Shown: positions 41,937 through 53,398 of the stretch, piece after piece | Numbering within the stretch: position 1 is the stretch's first letter | Layout: every line of letters begins with the position of its first letter | Assembly (NCBI GenBank): GCA_000827205.1 | Contig: KN832554.1 | Coordinates: 2,900,690-2,964,689 of the forward strand | Direction of reading: 5' to 3' | DNA length: 64,000 bases | Origin: Plicaturopsis crispa FD-325 SS-3 | Lineage: Eukaryota > Basidiomycota > Agaricomycetes > Amylocorticiales > Amylocorticiaceae | The notes under the pieces: generated by a model | Seen by the model: the letters and a program-made list of their open reading frames with translations, nothing else | What the model was told of the DNA's origin: nothing | Databases searched by the model: none | Position numbers and translations under genes: made by a program

Positions 41937-44146
41937 TTAAAGCTTGGCTTTAACAGCCACCTCAACTACCCCTTCCTCTGCCAATAACTCGCCCTTTGCA
42001 CGTTCCCGCAACTCGCGCCGTAAGATCTTCCCCGCCGCACTGCACGAATAACGCGAATCAGTACATGCTTGCAACGGACATATGAGATTAGAATGCACCT
42101 CTTAGGCACGGCGTCCAGGACGACAACGCCCCCTCGCAAATGTTTATGCCGTGCGACGCGGCTTGCGATCCACGTCTGCACCGCCCGTCCAAATTCAGCT
42201 TTTGCACTAGCAGAGCCAACTGATGCTGGTCTGGCGTGCACGACATACGCGCTAAGAAGGCGGTCAGCACGGCAATGCATAGGCACAAGGAGAATACTAC
42301 TGCGCACCGAGGAAGCTCCGTGGCCTGCTTTATGCTCTCAACGCCAATCACCGCTGCGTCCGCGATGTCGGGGTGCTCGAGGAGCACGCTCTCGAGTTCC
42401 GCGGGAGGCACCTGGAAGCCCTATTGTTGCCACAAAAAAGTGAGCTCGTTGATTAACATGGCTACATCACCGGGACGAGCCTTGTATTTGATGAGCTCCT
42501 TTTTCCTGTCGACGATCGAATAGAATCCGTCTTTGTCCCGTATCGCAATGTCTCCGGTGCGGAACCACCCGTCAGGCGTGATCGCGTTACGCGTCGCCTC
42601 TGTGTTGTTCAGGTAGCCCTGCAATCCTTCGCTCAACAAATGTGCTTTGCAGATTGATTTTGGGAAGTTTACCTTCATTATGGTGGGGCCGCGGATCCAA
42701 AGCTCTCCCCGCGCGCCCTCGGGGACGTCACGGTCATCGTCGCCATCGACGAGGCGCGCCTCGAGGTTGGGCAGCAGCGTGCCAATGGTGCCCACTTTCG
42801 ATACCGTCTGCGTCAAAGGCACAAGATGCGTCGTGGGCGAGGTCTCCGTCAAGCCGTATCCTGCGCGTAATCAGCATGAAGAGAGTAGAAGGCGGGAACA
42901 CGACCGACCTTGCGCAACAACGACGTTCGCACCGACAGTGTGTAGGCGCGTCGTGAAGGCTTCCACAAGACTAGCACCTAGTGGGGCGGCGCCGGAGATG
43001 AGGACCCGTAAGCTCCGTAGGTCGTGTTGCTCGATAGCTACAGTTGGGTTGAGTGTTTGCTAAGCGTTATGTAGATTGTCAGAATCTCACCTGGATGCCT
43101 GACTAGGACGACAAGCACGGGAGGAACTACGAGAGATACTGTGCATTTGTACCGAGCAATGTGTGCACAGAAGGTGACGGGGTCAAATCGCGGCGTAATG
43201 ATGGTCGGTATGCCGGTAGAGAGCGGAAAGTGCAGCAGCTTGACAGCACCTGGAGGAGAGTAATTGGGAGTGATATCAAAATGTATGTTAGATACGACGC
43301 GTACCATATATATGGTAGAAGGGGAGAATTCCGAGCATGACATCCGAGTTATGTGCTAGAGGGAAGCACGGTCGGATGATGTCGATGACAGCCGTCATAT
43401 TTCTGTGTGTCGTCTGACAGCATACAACTCAGCAAGAATAAAATCAGTAGAATAAAGAGAAAAATTCGCACTTCAACGCCTTTCGGTTTCCCAGTTGTCC
43501 CGCTGGAATAGCAGAGGTACACCGTCTCATTTGCATCCTCGCCGTCAAATCGCTCTTCTGCCTTCATTTTTCCTATCTGCGTCAATGACTCGACGCCCAC
43601 CATTGCACTGGACCTGTCGTGCGGCGCATCCTCCACACCAGTGAGCCACTTGTTGTCCAGTACTACCACCCTGCTTTCCCACCCGGCCAGACCTTCATCT
43701 TTGAACATTTCGCGGACAACCCCGAGATTCGCGGGATGCACGCAAATGACGCGCGCACGACTGTCCGTCCACTGATGGTGTAGCTCGCGCGCTGTATATG
43801 CCGTGTTGGCAAGCGTCGCACGGAGTCCAGCTGCGGTAGCGGCATGCAGCAGGACGGGATAAAGTAGTGTGTTCGGGGAGTATATGAGGATTGTATCACC
43901 GCGCTTCAATGTCTGGTGCGGCGCTGGGAGAAACGGATGGGTACGGAGGCCATGGGCAAGGGACAGCGAGAGATGCTTCAACTGGCCACGAGATAGCGTG
44001 GTACCCGTGTCGGCATCGATAAATGCAGGGCTCGAGGCTGGGAAGCCGCCGACGAGGTCTGGCGTACTGGGATCCGAATGGAAGAGATGTGTAAATATGG
44101 AGCGGGATTGGATGGGAACGGAGGGCTGTGGCGAGGTGTATATCAT
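41937..44146 (-). CDS. Acyl-CoA/4-coumarate-CoA ligase-like enzyme, peroxisomal type
   Basis: AMP-forming ligase that activates a fatty or aromatic acid to its CoA ester. The first exon (43472-44146) ends in the P-loop-like motif [16 protein letters not shown]. Later exons supply [82 protein letters not shown] and [20 protein letters not shown]. The C-terminal exon continues [16 protein letters not shown], with the catalytic Lys, and the protein ends VAVKAKL. A C-terminal AKL is a type 1 peroxisomal signal variant, so import into peroxisomes is likely. Exon junctions in the middle were read only approximately. The substrate cannot be assigned. Confidence 0.88.
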
Positions 44147-44974
44147 CGTGAGGACCAGGCAGCAGTCGGGGGGAAGAAAGAGAGTAACACAAGGAACGAA
44201 AGACGGATATTTATGCAATATTTAGGGGATATGTTTCCGGGTATCCGGCGGTCCGGGGGTGGGGGTGGCTGTGTACACACGTTTTCCCTATCACTTCTCT
44301 AGGTCATGCGGGCCACATTAGTGCTACAAATTCATCTTTGCCTAGGGACACCATCAGAAACTAAGTAAATGCAGCAGAGTGAGACCGACTATTAAATTTC
44401 AAGATGGCGGCGCCGGCCTTATAAATTGTCGACAGGCGCCAAATGCCATATCCTACTGCCGTGGTTGGTCAAGATAAGTTGCCTTGAAATGGGCCTCCGT
44501 CAACTCACACGACAAATACAGCCAAGGCACTGTGTCGGTGGGAACTTGTATCAGTGCCAGATGACGGAGAGGGACAGCCTGGTCCCAGTAGCTCACTGGT
44601 GCGACATAAGTAGTTCAAGGACGGTCGAGAGATAAGTACTAATTCTACTAGGGTTCGAACTGACGACACTCTTTTCTTGGAGGACATTCGGGAATGACCG
44701 CGGGGACTGGTGGCATCGAGTGGTCGTGTGATTGCTGCCCGAAGCAAGTAGGTTAGCGATAGACTTAGCAATGGGCACGAAATTGCCGTGCACGTGAAAC
44801 TTGCATCGAGTGCCCGTAGCTGTCCTGAATGTGCAGAGGAATGCAGGCGTCGGAGCACAGGATCAGAGCTTTGACCTCAAAAGAGAGAGAAACTTGGCTG
44901 CTTGCCTCTCGCAGGGGGCGTGGGCCTATAGATTTCCATACGGGAGAGGAACCATGAAGAGGTAGCACCGTCAC
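44147..44974. other. Intergenic region, no gene seen
   Basis: Promoter side of the acyl-CoA ligase and 3' side of the membrane-protein gene. Only short frames; no RNA or repeat recognised. Confidence 0.45.
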
Positions 44975-47014
44975 TCAGGCGTCGACATTCTCGATAGTAG
45001 TTATATACTGTGACTCTTGCCTCCGAGTCGGTGTCCAGCTATTAGGGAGGGCTGCCTGTGTCCTCTGGCGCTGTCGAATCTCACGCATGTTGATCATCAT
45101 CCTGGGCACCTGCGCGCACTGCTGTCAGCGACTCTAGCTCTGCTAGTGTAGACCTTTGATAATGCTCACCGTTACGCATGCCACGACGCCGCATGGGCTA
45201 GGGTGTCGGCGAGCCGTCAGACAAGTGAGCACACGAGTCTATGAGCCACTCACGTCATAAGTATAGAGTGGTACGGACTTGATAACTTGTACATGATCGC
45301 ATTTGCCAGTAGCATTGCTACATTGTCAAAATTGAGCCATGCACACCAAGCACGCTAGCGGGATACAGGCTTACCAAACATGAGAATGAAGTAGATCAAC
45401 GAGTCGCGTGCAATAAGCATCCGCCTGCTCCCGAAACCATTGGAGTTGATTGGTGTCAGAATGTGCGTATACAGCGACCAAGATAGCACTGACATTGGCC
45501 AGTCTCCGGCAGCCTTTGAATGAACAGGGCCCTGACGTATCTTGTACAGGGTAACCACGATGATGGTGACTGGACGAGTTTCAGTATCAACTGGAGGCCT
45601 ACGTTCAGTGCACGCACCTTCAAACACCACCATTGCTAGGCTAAGAAAGCTGGAGCCATTAATGTGAAATGTACGTGGATTAAATAGCCGTACGTGATAG
45701 CAAACATATATGTTGGCTGTACCGTGAGGCAGCCAGGGGACGAGGGAAAGGCAAGAGGACCATTATCTGCAAGTTGAGCCCTGACTCGTCAATCGTCATA
45801 TGACCTTTGAGGCGAAGGAGAACCCCATATTGATATAGGTATGACCGGCACGTACAATCATGTATGTCGAAGTTCCAGATAGCCCCTACGACCACAATCG
45901 CTATCGGTAACCCTTGCGAGACGGTTTGAAACTGTGCAATAACCAGCAGAAATTGCATAGAATGTGCTTACCTGCGAGGATAGCGATAAGCAATGCAAGC
46001 ACCCGCTGAGAAAGAAATAAGTCATTATGTGGCCGCGGGCGTAGACCCATGATATGCATGCTGTTTAGCGGCAAGTACCTTTTCATGAACGACTGACAAG
46101 ACCGTCTTCAGCAACCATCCTGCAAAGGAGGAAAGTCACGCACACAGAGCCGAAACGCGTAAGACGGTTACCATCTCAACAACTGCGACCGCAATGCCGC
46201 TGGGCCTGTTCGTATTTTGTCTCAGGATTAGCTGTGGCACGCATATCTAGACCAAACCCACCATACTTCAAACATCACCAAAAATTCACAGCTGAAAATG
46301 TTGAGCGACGCAGAAGTGAAATGACTAGGAGCGATGCATGCTTGAAAACGTACAACTGCACTCGGAGTCAGCGGGAGCTTGGCGATACACTCAGGAAGGC
46401 TCACAGATTCCGACAAGTCTGTCATGGCTGACGCTAGACAACACGTCAAAATACGTAGATGGTACCACAGGGGTCTGAGTTTGCTTACCGAGGCCTACAA
46501 ATCTGCATGCGCGATTCCAAATTAGTGTCGATGCTGGACAAGTAGGCGTGATCACGAACAAAAGTGCGGGGGGAACGAGATACCGATTCATTATGAACAA
46601 CACTTTAGGCATCCGCCACGACAGTCTGAGGTAGTATCCTGGCTTGAGTGGCGCGGAGATAGATTACGAGGTTGAAACGTACGGCCATATATGTTCCCTC
46701 TGCACAGGTAGTCAACACCAGGCGGATATACAATGGCAATAAGCATCACTTACTTCGAGGTTGAAAGTCAAAGCATGATCATATATCATCAGGGTCTGCA
46801 AAGTATAAGTCTCTGGGGAGGAGGAGGATATTGGGTGCGCCCACCAGGAAAGCAACTACACAGAAATGCAATATATCAGCGATCTCGTTCGGCGAGCATG
46901 AGGCGAGGAAAGCATACATTGCATATAGCGTGTCGTCCGTAAAGCGTTAAGATTCCCTTCCCCGGAGGAAGCGCTGCCAACGGAGGGCAACGCTTCAGGA
47001 GAACGGAGAGACAT
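44975..47014 (-). CDS. DUF6533-type seven-helix membrane protein
   Basis: Basidiomycete-specific integral membrane protein with GPCR-like topology but unknown ligand. Early exons are 46918-47014, 46845-46855, 46754-46795, 46683-46699 and 46489-46625. They encode MSLRSPEALPSVGSAS, TTRYMQFAFLTLMIYDHALT and WRMPKVLFIMNRYLVPPALL, the DUF6533 signature. Two are microexons of 11 and 17 bases, required by phase. Downstream helices include RVLALLIAILAG, LPIAIVVVGAIW, PVTIIVVTLYKIRQ and MLIARDSLIYFILMFG; the last exon reads VPRMMINMREIRQRQRTQ and ends ENVDA at 44975. The middle (about 45700-46480) was not fully resolved. Two small Met-Gly proteins follow upstream on the same strand. Confidence 0.7.
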
Positions 47015-47443: not shown

Positions 47444-47834
47444 TTAAGCAGGCCTGTCACGGTTCTCCTGTATATTAGGCGTCATTCCTGTGATTTCGAC
47501 GGGTTGTGAGCCAGCAGAACGCCGTGCTGAGGAGCGGCGGATGTCGTCCTTGATCTGCCGATCCAAATCGTCATCGTTACAGCCTCCGCAGGAACAACAA
47601 CAGCGCGTCGGTGTGGCAGTGCTCGTGAGCGCTAGAAATTGCTCAGGAAGATCCACAGAATTGAATACTGTGGGGCTCATCGCACATATGTTGGACGCGC
47701 AGTCACAAATACCTATATGCAAGTTGAAGGAGGTTAACTTTTGCCGGACGACGATGACAGACATCTGAATCTGAAATACAGCACGCACCGAAACAACCCA
47801 GAAAGAGGGCAAAGCAATCGAGACATTTGCCCAT
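47444..47834 (-). CDS. Small Met-Gly, Cys-rich protein A
   Basis: No family recognised. Exons 47789-47834 and 47444-47712 give 104 residues. It begins MGKCLDCFALFLGCFGICDC: Gly at position 2 fits an N-myristoylation site, and Cys at 4 and 7 could be palmitoylated, so attachment to the inner face of a membrane is likely (inference). A Cys cluster TRCCCSCGGCNDDD follows near residue 60, and the tail is polar. The 76-base intron is phase 1 and splits the GCFG motif at its last Gly. The neighbouring gene at 48460-48885 has the same opening, motif and intron phase, so the two are tandem paralogues. Confidence 0.65.
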
Positions 47835-48459
47835 GCTCAGAGGCTGGACTCACGGTAACGCGTCTAACTTGATATATAAACTTGACCGCGGCGTCAAAAT
47901 GGCACTTAGAATGATACAGAAATCAACACTTTCTAACTAGAGTCCGCAGGACTTATCAACACCTGGATTTTTTGTATAAGATTTGACTTTACTCACTTCC
48001 TATCCACGTTGACGGCCTCTAGACAGTCGTCAAATGCCCACTAGTAGTGGAACAGAGAGAGCTGATACCCGTCTGCTGTCGACGAGCGCTATCGAGCTGC
48101 TTTCGTATGCGTCAGAAAGTCAAAACGAGGAGCAAGCTACACGCCGCTCGGATCCCACGCGGCCGGAGTGCCCGAGAGTGCCCGCCACTACGAGTTTTCC
48201 GCTGTTTTCCATGTTGCATTCTTCCCCAAGCTCTCCCCTGATACGTTACTGGTATGCTCATAAATGCCCGTGTCCACCCCTCCAATAACCCAGGTAAAGT
48301 CCGAAATTCTCTAGCACATATAGTCCGTGGTCTCGAGATGCTCCATATCGTCGACTGCCTAAATTATACAACTTTGAATGTCTCGCCAATGCTCATTGCA
48401 CCACTTCGATGAACGTACCTCCAATCCCGTTCGCGGCGGACCATTCCAGCGCGACGCTG
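47835..48459. other. Spacer between the two small paralogues
   Basis: About 600 bases, probably the promoter of protein A and the 3' region of protein B. No gene seen; an 84-codon frame at 48034 lacks support. Confidence 0.4.
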
Positions 48460-48885
48460 CTACTCACTAGCATTTCTCGTGCTGGAGCCCTCACGAAGAC
48501 GCAACGAAACCACCTTCGCGCCCCGTATGCCCACGATGTAATCAGAATCACAGCTGCTCTTCCTCCGTTCACTCCCCTGCGTGTGTAATGGTTCGGTAGG
48601 CCGCCGTCCTGTCTCTACCGAGACTTGAGAGTCTGAGCGTCCAGCGCTCGTCCCTCCTAGTGACGTGAGTGATGCCGGTTTAGACGCGATGTCGTCTGCG
48701 TCTGGCCATGCATAAAGCGTGTCTAGATCGTTCTTCCGACTATACTCCGCAGACTCGCAGAAACAGCATTCGCAGCGGTCTTTCCGGCGACCTAGTATGC
48801 TGTGTTTAGTAACGCAAAGATGTAACAAGACGACTATTTATCACGTACCGAAACAGCCTTTCAATGCAGCGAAGACGCGGCCCAT
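48460..48885 (-). CDS. Small Met-Gly, Cys-rich protein B
   Basis: No family recognised. Exons 48849-48885 and 48460-48791 give 122 residues. It begins MGRVFAALKGCFGRRKDRCE, again Met-Gly with a GCFG motif, followed by basic residues and the Cys cluster CECCFCESAEYSRK. The rest is acidic then Ser/Thr/Arg-rich (ADDIASKPASLTSLGG) and ends STRNASE. The 57-base intron is phase 1 and cuts GCFG exactly as in protein A. Lipid attachment at Gly2 with a nearby basic patch would favour the plasma membrane. A GCFG-centred family of small membrane-anchored proteins is the simplest reading. Confidence 0.65.
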
Positions 48886-49720
48886 TATTGACCACCAGTG
48901 GATATCTGCTTTCGAGAGTAGACACTGGATGATATTCGGACGCACAGAGAGACGTTGATCGATAGCTGCAAGTTGAAGCCGCAGACCCCACACTGACAGA
49001 TAAGGCATACGAAGGTCTTGATACGGTGATTTGTGACCGCTGTGGAGGCGCTTCTTTGGGTCGACGCTGCAGTGTCGGGGTGGCCAAGCATGGCTCAAGC
49101 TGCCCATTGGTTACTTACCACTTGCGCGCCGTGTGCTCGACCGCTACGCTACTTATCGTCGACATCGTCGGCCATGTTGACTCTGTTAGGATATGCATTA
49201 TGATTGTGGCTCGAATTCGTACATCCCCATCGAACACTGCGAGTACGGACTTGCGTCAGAAGTCAGCTCGTCACATAGTCCTTCCCTCACAATAAACGAT
49301 ATTGCTCACCAAACATGCAAGTACCTCCAATCAGCGCCCAGTCACTGCAAAATTGACTTCAAGTGGAACGCGCCACGTTGCCCGTAAAACCCGTGTCAGA
49401 TATTACGTAACTACTCAATCAATATCGTTCAGGTCGACTGTACATGTTGCGGCGCTCGAGCTCGTTGCTTTTGAACGCTCAAGCCTCCCGCCCAAGGTGG
49501 CTTGGTAACATCTGGATCTTTGCTTGATTCTTTAAGGACCGTCCTTGCTCACTGGACACACGCAAGCAAGGCCAAGATAAACCCGAATGCCACAGCGCAG
49601 CGCACGCACCACGACAGACGTTAACTACTTGACTACCTCGCACAGTGGGCAGATGAAATTCTAGGATCCGGAGAATGGTACGCGAAAAATATCGAAGTTT
49701 CAACGCGCGGTCACTGATTC
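48886..49720. other. Gene-poor stretch, left of the inverted repeat
   Basis: Open frames exist on both strands, but none with consistent coding bias. The promoter of protein B lies at its left end. Confidence 0.4.
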
Positions 49721-50262
49721 GAGGACATGTCGATTCCAGAGAATCCGCCCCATCCGTCCGTCCGTCCGTCCGTCCGCCATCACGTGGTCTTAAATAGGAC
49801 TGTGGCGCAAACATCTGTACCGTCCCGCCGCCGCCTTGAGGCATTATACGCTACGAGATTGTATCTTAGAGCCAACATAGACATCCAATGCACATACTGA
49901 CGAGCGGCGGGAGCGTTCCGTCATGTTCTAACAGTATCATGGGCCGAATAAGTGGCGGGATGCAGGAAAATCTGCTTAAGTCATGTTTGTATGGCGGTAA
50001 AATGCTTCGTAGTAGTAATACACGATACGCAACTATGGCAGGCACTAATATACTATGCGGTAGAGCGCCATGACCGCTTACGAGGGCGGCGGGCATGAAT
50101 TACGGGTCCCGACGCCCAAACAAGAACCCCGCCACAGCGGCGGGGGCGCCTGGAGTTCAATGCCGGGCGATGCCGAAGGGTGGGGTACCGGTTGCGATTG
50201 AAATCCGGACGGACGGACGGACGGACATGGGGCGGATTTTCTCAAATCGACATTTCCTGACT
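49721..50262. repeat. Inverted-repeat element with CCGT microsatellite arms
   Basis: The left arm (about 49721-49776) and right arm (about 50206-50262) are imperfect reverse complements. Both contain ATGTCGATT-like words, AATCCGCCCCAT and a run of CCGT (or ACGG) units. The 430-base centre has no coding frame. This looks like a fold-back or MITE-type repeat; target-site duplications were not identified. Confidence 0.5.
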
Positions 50263-52110: not shown

Positions 52111-52594
52111 GAACGCATGAACTCGACTCGTAGTGTTGTTGGCAGCTTTTCGCCATTTCGCCCTGCCATTCTGCCATGCCGGCAGTTGCCATCTGCCGCA
52201 AGGGTAGGTCTGGCAGAATTTGGCACAATATATGCCAGATATAGCTATTTGTACGAGGCAGTGGGTCCTCGTTCTGAAGGGCACCCCGAGCGAAACTCGA
52301 ACTTGACGCTGGCGCATACTTCAGCGGCAAATATGGCCAGAAACCCTTTTTTGGCCACACTCTGGCACCAAAAGACGCTGCAAAAGCCGCTCACTTGACT
52401 ATTTTGGGCGATTTTCCCGGTAAACTTCCGTTTTCGGACATGTTTTTGACCACACGGGAGTTGTGGCAGAAAGTCATCCAGAGATTCTGCCCGACAGCAA
52501 AAACATCGTGGGCAACGATGAAAAGCCCAAAAACAATTGTGCCAAAATCTGCCACCCTTGGCAGTTGCCGTTCTGCCGTTCTGCCGGCAGCGCA
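52111..52594. repeat. Repeat copy 1, left of the gap
   Basis: This 484-base block appears identical to 52915-53398 by reading. Inside, a subterminal inverted repeat is seen: GGCAGAATTTGGCACAAT near 52212 pairs with the complement of ATTGTGCCAAAATCTGCC near 52537, with TGCCGGCAG words outside. This resembles a non-autonomous DNA element. It ends directly at the run of N. Confidence 0.75.
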
Positions 52595-52914
52595 NNNNNN
52601 NNNNNNNNNNNNNNNNNNNNNNNNNNNNNNNNNNNNNNNNNNNNNNNNNNNNNNNNNNNNNNNNNNNNNNNNNNNNNNNNNNNNNNNNNNNNNNNNNNNN
52701 NNNNNNNNNNNNNNNNNNNNNNNNNNNNNNNNNNNNNNNNNNNNNNNNNNNNNNNNNNNNNNNNNNNNNNNNNNNNNNNNNNNNNNNNNNNNNNNNNNNN
52801 NNNNNNNNNNNNNNNNNNNNNNNNNNNNNNNNNNNNNNNNNNNNNNNNNNNNNNNNNNNNNNNNNNNNNNNNNNNNNNNNNNNNNNNNNNNNNNNNNNNN
52901 NNNNNNNNNNNNNN
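52595..52914. other. Assembly gap (320 N)
   Basis: A run of 320 undetermined bases. No feature can be called across it. Confidence 0.98.
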
Positions 52915-53398
52915 GAACGCATGAACTCGACTCGTAGTGTTGTTGGCAGCTTTTCGCCATTTCGCCCTGCCATTCTGCCATGCCGGCAGTTGCCATCTGC
53001 CGCAAGGGTAGGTCTGGCAGAATTTGGCACAATATATGCCAGATATAGCTATTTGTACGAGGCAGTGGGTCCTCGTTCTGAAGGGCACCCCGAGCGAAAC
53101 TCGAACTTGACGCTGGCGCATACTTCAGCGGCAAATATGGCCAGAAACCCTTTTTTGGCCACACTCTGGCACCAAAAGACGCTGCAAAAGCCGCTCACTT
53201 GACTATTTTGGGCGATTTTCCCGGTAAACTTCCGTTTTCGGACATGTTTTTGACCACACGGGAGTTGTGGCAGAAAGTCATCCAGAGATTCTGCCCGACA
53301 GCAAAAACATCGTGGGCAACGATGAAAAGCCCAAAAACAATTGTGCCAAAATCTGCCACCCTTGGCAGTTGCCGTTCTGCCGTTCTGCCGGCAGCGCA
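52915..53398. repeat. Repeat copy 2, right of the gap
   Basis: Starts right after the gap with the same bases that begin copy 1 at 52111, and ends at 53398 where copy 1 meets the gap. The identical length and placement point to two ends of adjoining contigs that overlap but were not merged. Confidence 0.75.

Follow-up and report, generated by a model that had tools for sequence, protein, structure and literature searches.

The closest described counterparts of the two small genes discussed here, A and B, are N-myristoylated or S-acylated peripheral membrane proteins of the ARF6 type (Gly2-Lys3), with which they have in common a Met-Gly start, a basic residue, a hydrophobic stretch and nearby cysteines. 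They differ from these proteins in lacking a GTPase or other known domain, in the Asp6 of A, and in that both fail the PS00008-type myristoylation pattern. The runs CCCSCGGC in A and CECCFC in B are reminiscent of the palmitoylated cysteine-string proteins, but A and B have no J domain and no Pfam match, and their strings are far shorter. Fungal metallothioneins are a further point of comparison, since they too are small proteins with CC and CxC clusters, although A and B are low in Cys overall and have a long Cys-poor tail.

Genes A and B lie in a 64,000-nucleotide stretch of Plicaturopsis crispa FD-325 SS-3 DNA (positions 2900690-2964689 of one contig; hereafter the window), from an assembly of 33.2 Mb in 49 contigs. 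They are organized in tandem on the minus strand with B upstream and the A ATG 1051 nt further on, and the predicted features of the locus, with part of a neighbouring gene, are as follows.

48849 to 48885, minus strand: gene B exon 1, encoding MGRVFAALKGCF plus the first base of a Gly codon; ATG at 48885
48792 to 48848, minus strand: gene B intron, 57 nt, GTACGT...TACTAAA...TAG, phase 1, with stops inside the unspliced frame
48460 to 48791, minus strand: gene B exon 2 with the CECCFC cluster, through the stop codon; protein of 122 aa
47789 to 47834, minus strand: gene A exon 1, encoding MGKCLDCFALFLGCF plus the first base of a Gly codon; ATG at 47834
47713 to 47788, minus strand: gene A intron, 76 nt, GTGCGT...TAG, phase 1
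47444 to 47712, minus strand: gene A exon 2 with the TRCCCSCGGC cluster, through the stop codon; protein of 104 aa
46394 to 46918, minus strand: 5' part of a seven-helix neighbour, DUF6533 (PF20151, 57.4 bits); start and splices placed by eye, approximate

Given these gene models, translation agrees with the original prediction that both genes open with Met-Gly, that a phase-1 intron lies inside a GCFG motif in each, and that Cys clusters follow in exon 2. The A product reads MGKCLDCFALFLGCFG^ICDC...TRCCCSCGGC (104 aa), and the B product MGRVFAALKGCFG^RRKDRCECCFC... followed by a long polar tail (122 aa), both as translations of the spliced models. The first exons are 46 nt in A and 37 nt in B, and in both GCFG is at the end (residues 13-16 and 10-13, respectively), with the Gly codon split after its first base by both introns. 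The common head, MG[KR]...FA...GCFG, the place of the intron and the arrangement of the genes in tandem can all be read directly from the DNA. The donors are GTGCGT in A and GTACGT in B, and both start codons have an A at -3 and a G at +4.

The two models differ in how far they depend on splicing. Gene B needs the upstream start and the splice because no Met occurs in its exon-2 frame, and when read without splicing it meets a stop right after GCFGT; a branch site, TACTAAA, is present near the end of its intron. In gene A the intron has no clear branch site and the exon-2 frame is open through it, with an ATG inside the intron, and an unspliced model starting there and beginning MSVIVV is possible from the frame.

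Codon usage in exon 2 carries no coding signal, with scores of 0.002 for A and 0.053 for B, both within the wrong-frame null (mean -0.010, sd 0.117) and below the 0.166 averaged by correct frames. The training set consisted of ten long stop-to-stop frames from the window, some of them unconfirmed as genes. An antisense frame outscores the exon-2 frame in both genes (0.015 in A and 0.071 in B). These weak scores speak against the A and B gene models; orphan genes are often weak in codon scores. They would be expected if one or both genes were non-coding, that is, chance open frames in intergenic DNA with the common motif a coincidence or a relic, and the openness of the A exon-2 frame without splicing, the MITE-like repeat nearby, and the lack of homologues in Pfam or among solved structures point the same way. 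We consider this unlikely, as the start contexts and donors of both genes are good and such a pair is found in none of 1600 resampled windows.

The resampling was based on candidate first exons, defined as an ATG with 21-90 nt open, a GTRNGT donor, a YAG acceptor within ~100 nt and at least 60 open codons after it, and a pair qualified if both members were on the same strand, 200-2000 nt apart, and had a common phase and last three codons. No qualifying pair was obtained in the 1600 first-order Markov resamplings of the window (0/60 in a pilot), and because the pair criterion was fixed after seeing A and B, this figure is a guide rather than a formal probability. None of the 56 close candidate pairs qualifies in 45 other loci that cover 139,216 bases of the genome, some of them overlapping.

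The real window has two qualifying pairs, A/B and the exact pair 52232/53036. The second is rejected as a biological duplicate, because it sits in an exact repeat around an N run and is an assembly artefact. The repeat is direct and 484 nt long (52111-52594 and 52915-53398), is found on both sides of a 320-nt N run (52595-52914), and reflects a gap in the assembly whose edge was duplicated.

The head is also rare in the genome as a whole. The pattern ATGGG...TGYTTYGGTRHGT, which combines the motif and donor, has four matches in the 33.2 Mb, with none for the reversed control; two are A and B, and the others comprise a kinase-like frame (HRDLKPEN) and one not in phase 1. A looser Cys-x-Gly-donor pattern has 49 matches (22 for the reversed control), of which 32 were read with exon 2 and 17 for exon 1 only; 13 are open in phase 1 (9 and 4, respectively), a further open phase-1 case being an overlapping placement in locus L043 that is outside the 13. 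Only A and B among the 49 have in-frame heads with Gly-Cys-x before the split codon. Another looser pattern has eight matches, with three for its reversed control. A chance origin of the common first exon is unlikely.

The protein similarity between A and B is confined to this head. Aligned globally, head against head scores 33, reached by 0/1000 shuffles (mean -8.8, sd 7.5), and the whole-protein score of 14 is above that of every one of the 1000 shuffled B sequences (mean -36, sd 13), an excess that is carried by the head and not by exon 2; in local alignment, 72/1000 shuffles reach the best score obtained with the full-length proteins. Exon 2 of A and B has no significant similarity, shuffles reaching the local score in 292/1000 and the global score in 131/1000 cases. 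In DNA comparisons the local score for the first exon plus intron is reached by 1/300 resamplings and that for the upstream 600 nt by 11/300, compared with 149/300 for exon 2 and 110/300 for the downstream 500 nt. A 17-nt repeat across the junction is 88% identical between A and B, and is unremarkable as DNA because an 18-nt pair (89%) occurs elsewhere in the window and a third copy (82%) lies in B exon 2. Upstream of A and upstream of B lie two further short repeats (16 nt, 88%; 18 nt, 89%) with matching order and orientation, at 48340-48426 and 49148-49332, and these are possibly a relic of duplication, or chance.

This distribution of similarity would also be seen if only the 5' end had been duplicated (the start, first exon and donor, perhaps with upstream DNA), capturing two unrelated downstream sequences to give a common head on different bodies. 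Both the restriction of protein similarity to the head and the weak upstream hint, with nothing downstream, are consistent with such an event. That hint is small, though, and was noted post hoc, and fast divergence of disordered tails yields the same picture; we regard reuse of the 5' end as unlikely. The old duplication proposed in the original prediction is the best reading, one to which the head alignment, the genome pattern, the resampled windows and the pairs at other loci all contribute, and from sequence A and B are probably an old duplicate pair.

We favour, tentatively and at a probability of roughly 40%, the fuller reading that A and B arose by an old tandem duplication, have since diverged strongly, and each encode a peripheral membrane protein with a Met-Gly, Cys-containing head and a disordered tail. 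The unit copied would have been a whole small gene of this fungal lineage. The first exon would contribute a short, hydrophobic, Cys-containing Met-Gly head that tethers the protein at the cytosolic surface of a membrane, and the clustered cysteines would likely be S-acylated, whether or not Gly2 is also N-myristoylated. Exon 2 would provide a disordered, fast-evolving, charged tail with additional cysteines.

The composition of the heads is consistent with such a role. Directly behind Met-Gly each has hydrophobic residues and Cys, and the Cys positions near the N-terminus are 4, 7, 14, 18, 20 and 25 in A and 11, 19, 21, 22 and 24 in B; these Cys-rich surroundings would favour S-acylation. The most hydrophobic 19-residue stretch scores 1.71 in A (residues 7-25), which is borderline as a predicted membrane-inserted or signal-like segment, and 0.52 in B, which is too low. 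Neither head has a significant hydrophobic moment, fractions of 0.09 (A) and 0.08 (B) of shuffles reaching the observed values. AlphaFold in any case models orphan proteins poorly from a single sequence, and the models of the exon-2 pieces have mean pLDDTs of 51.1 and 45.5 and no confident fold, as would be predicted for disordered tails.

The lipid anchor that was suggested for both proteins has no support from the sequence pattern for myristoylation. Lys3 and Asp6 of A, and Arg3 of B, violate the PS00008-type pattern. Human NMTs label ARF6, which starts with Gly2-Lys3, in vitro, and they likewise label its K3R form (PMC7044312); on this evidence the basic residue 3 of A and B need not be fatal to myristoylation. 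We regard Asp6 of A as the harder objection.

The same cysteines could be explained if A and B were small cytosolic metal-binding proteins similar to metallothioneins, with CCCSCGGC and CECCFC holding metal. The CC and CxC clusters are of the appropriate kind, but Cys makes up only 11 of 104 residues in A and 6 of 122 in B, the clusters are at different places in the two proteins, and no Pfam family, metallothionein included, is matched at E values up to 10. Metal binding is very unlikely.

The N-terminal helix of ARF GTPases is myristoylated and has the form MG..F..L..GLFGKK, and the head could in principle derive from it by exon shuffling; by eye, MGRVFAALKGCFGRRKDR of B looks like an ARF N-terminus. 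The ARF family has 19 exon matches in the genome, and the N-termini were read in three of the genes, an ARF1-like LGKIFGNKEMRLL, MGLLTIIRKNRQKEKEMRIL and MGLSISTLFSSLTSLVRWSKDQDVRIL. All three are without an intron at this position, and since the phase-1 intron is missing from them this origin is disfavoured and extremely improbable.

Returning to the favoured reading of A and B as diverged tandem duplicates, we note that the pair appears to stand alone in its genome. A third copy was not found in the genome by protein and pattern searches, which copies without the searched motif would escape; the protein searches matched other places only weakly (E values of 0.08, 0.03 and 1.1). Pfam has no family for A or B at E values up to 10, and among solved structures A has three chance-level matches (E 0.84-1.5) and B has none, neither finding a relative. 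In viral contigs there is no relative of B exon 2, the only query used there. No such family is named among the literature titles listed, and the phrase 'GCFG motif' has no match in the literature searched. The small protein family originally proposed has weaker support than the duplicate pair, only these two copies being found in their own genome and neither matching Pfam. On their sequences we class A and B as orphan genes that form a tandem pair of an ordinary, lineage-specific kind, with an unusually conserved first exon. A more ambitious view, in which they represent a lineage-restricted family of acylated micro-adaptors of mushroom-forming fungi, with an MG...GCFG head on its own exon, an ancient phase-1 intron, and a site at the membrane beside the DUF6533 seven-helix protein, is quite improbable.

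If the genes are expressed, A and B would illustrate the extent of divergence that a short tandem duplicate can reach with its first exon and intron preserved, the head and intron being almost the sole remaining trace of common descent. The combination of Met-Gly head, GCFG and phase-1 intron would then be a search key for small fungal genes missed by similarity. The A/B pair alone reveals no new mechanism.

The adjacent gene, described beforehand as coding for a seven-helix membrane protein, is identified by PF20151 on its 5' part as a DUF6533 gene, with 16.2 bits on one exon and 57.4 bits, against a cut-off of 24.1, on the first exons joined by eye. It spans 45000-46918, downstream of A. The DUF6533 family has 47 further exon matches elsewhere in the genome, some of them clustered on contigs C5, C19 and C25; the window's own copy is not among the 47 because its domain is split by introns. 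With so many other matches, adjacency to A argues only weakly for a functional link. The mushroom DUF6533 protein SNB1 is predicted to have seven membrane helices according to PMC10949477, the title of which describes a DUF6533 family required for fruiting-body patterning.

Next but one to A is a minus-strand gene for an AMP-binding enzyme (42424-44221), with PF00501 in two exons. On the other side of the pair there is a MITE-like element of ~540 bp (49720-50260) with terminal inverted repeats of ~53 bp (89%), which has at least three further near-full copies in the genome at 96-97% identity among the matches listed.
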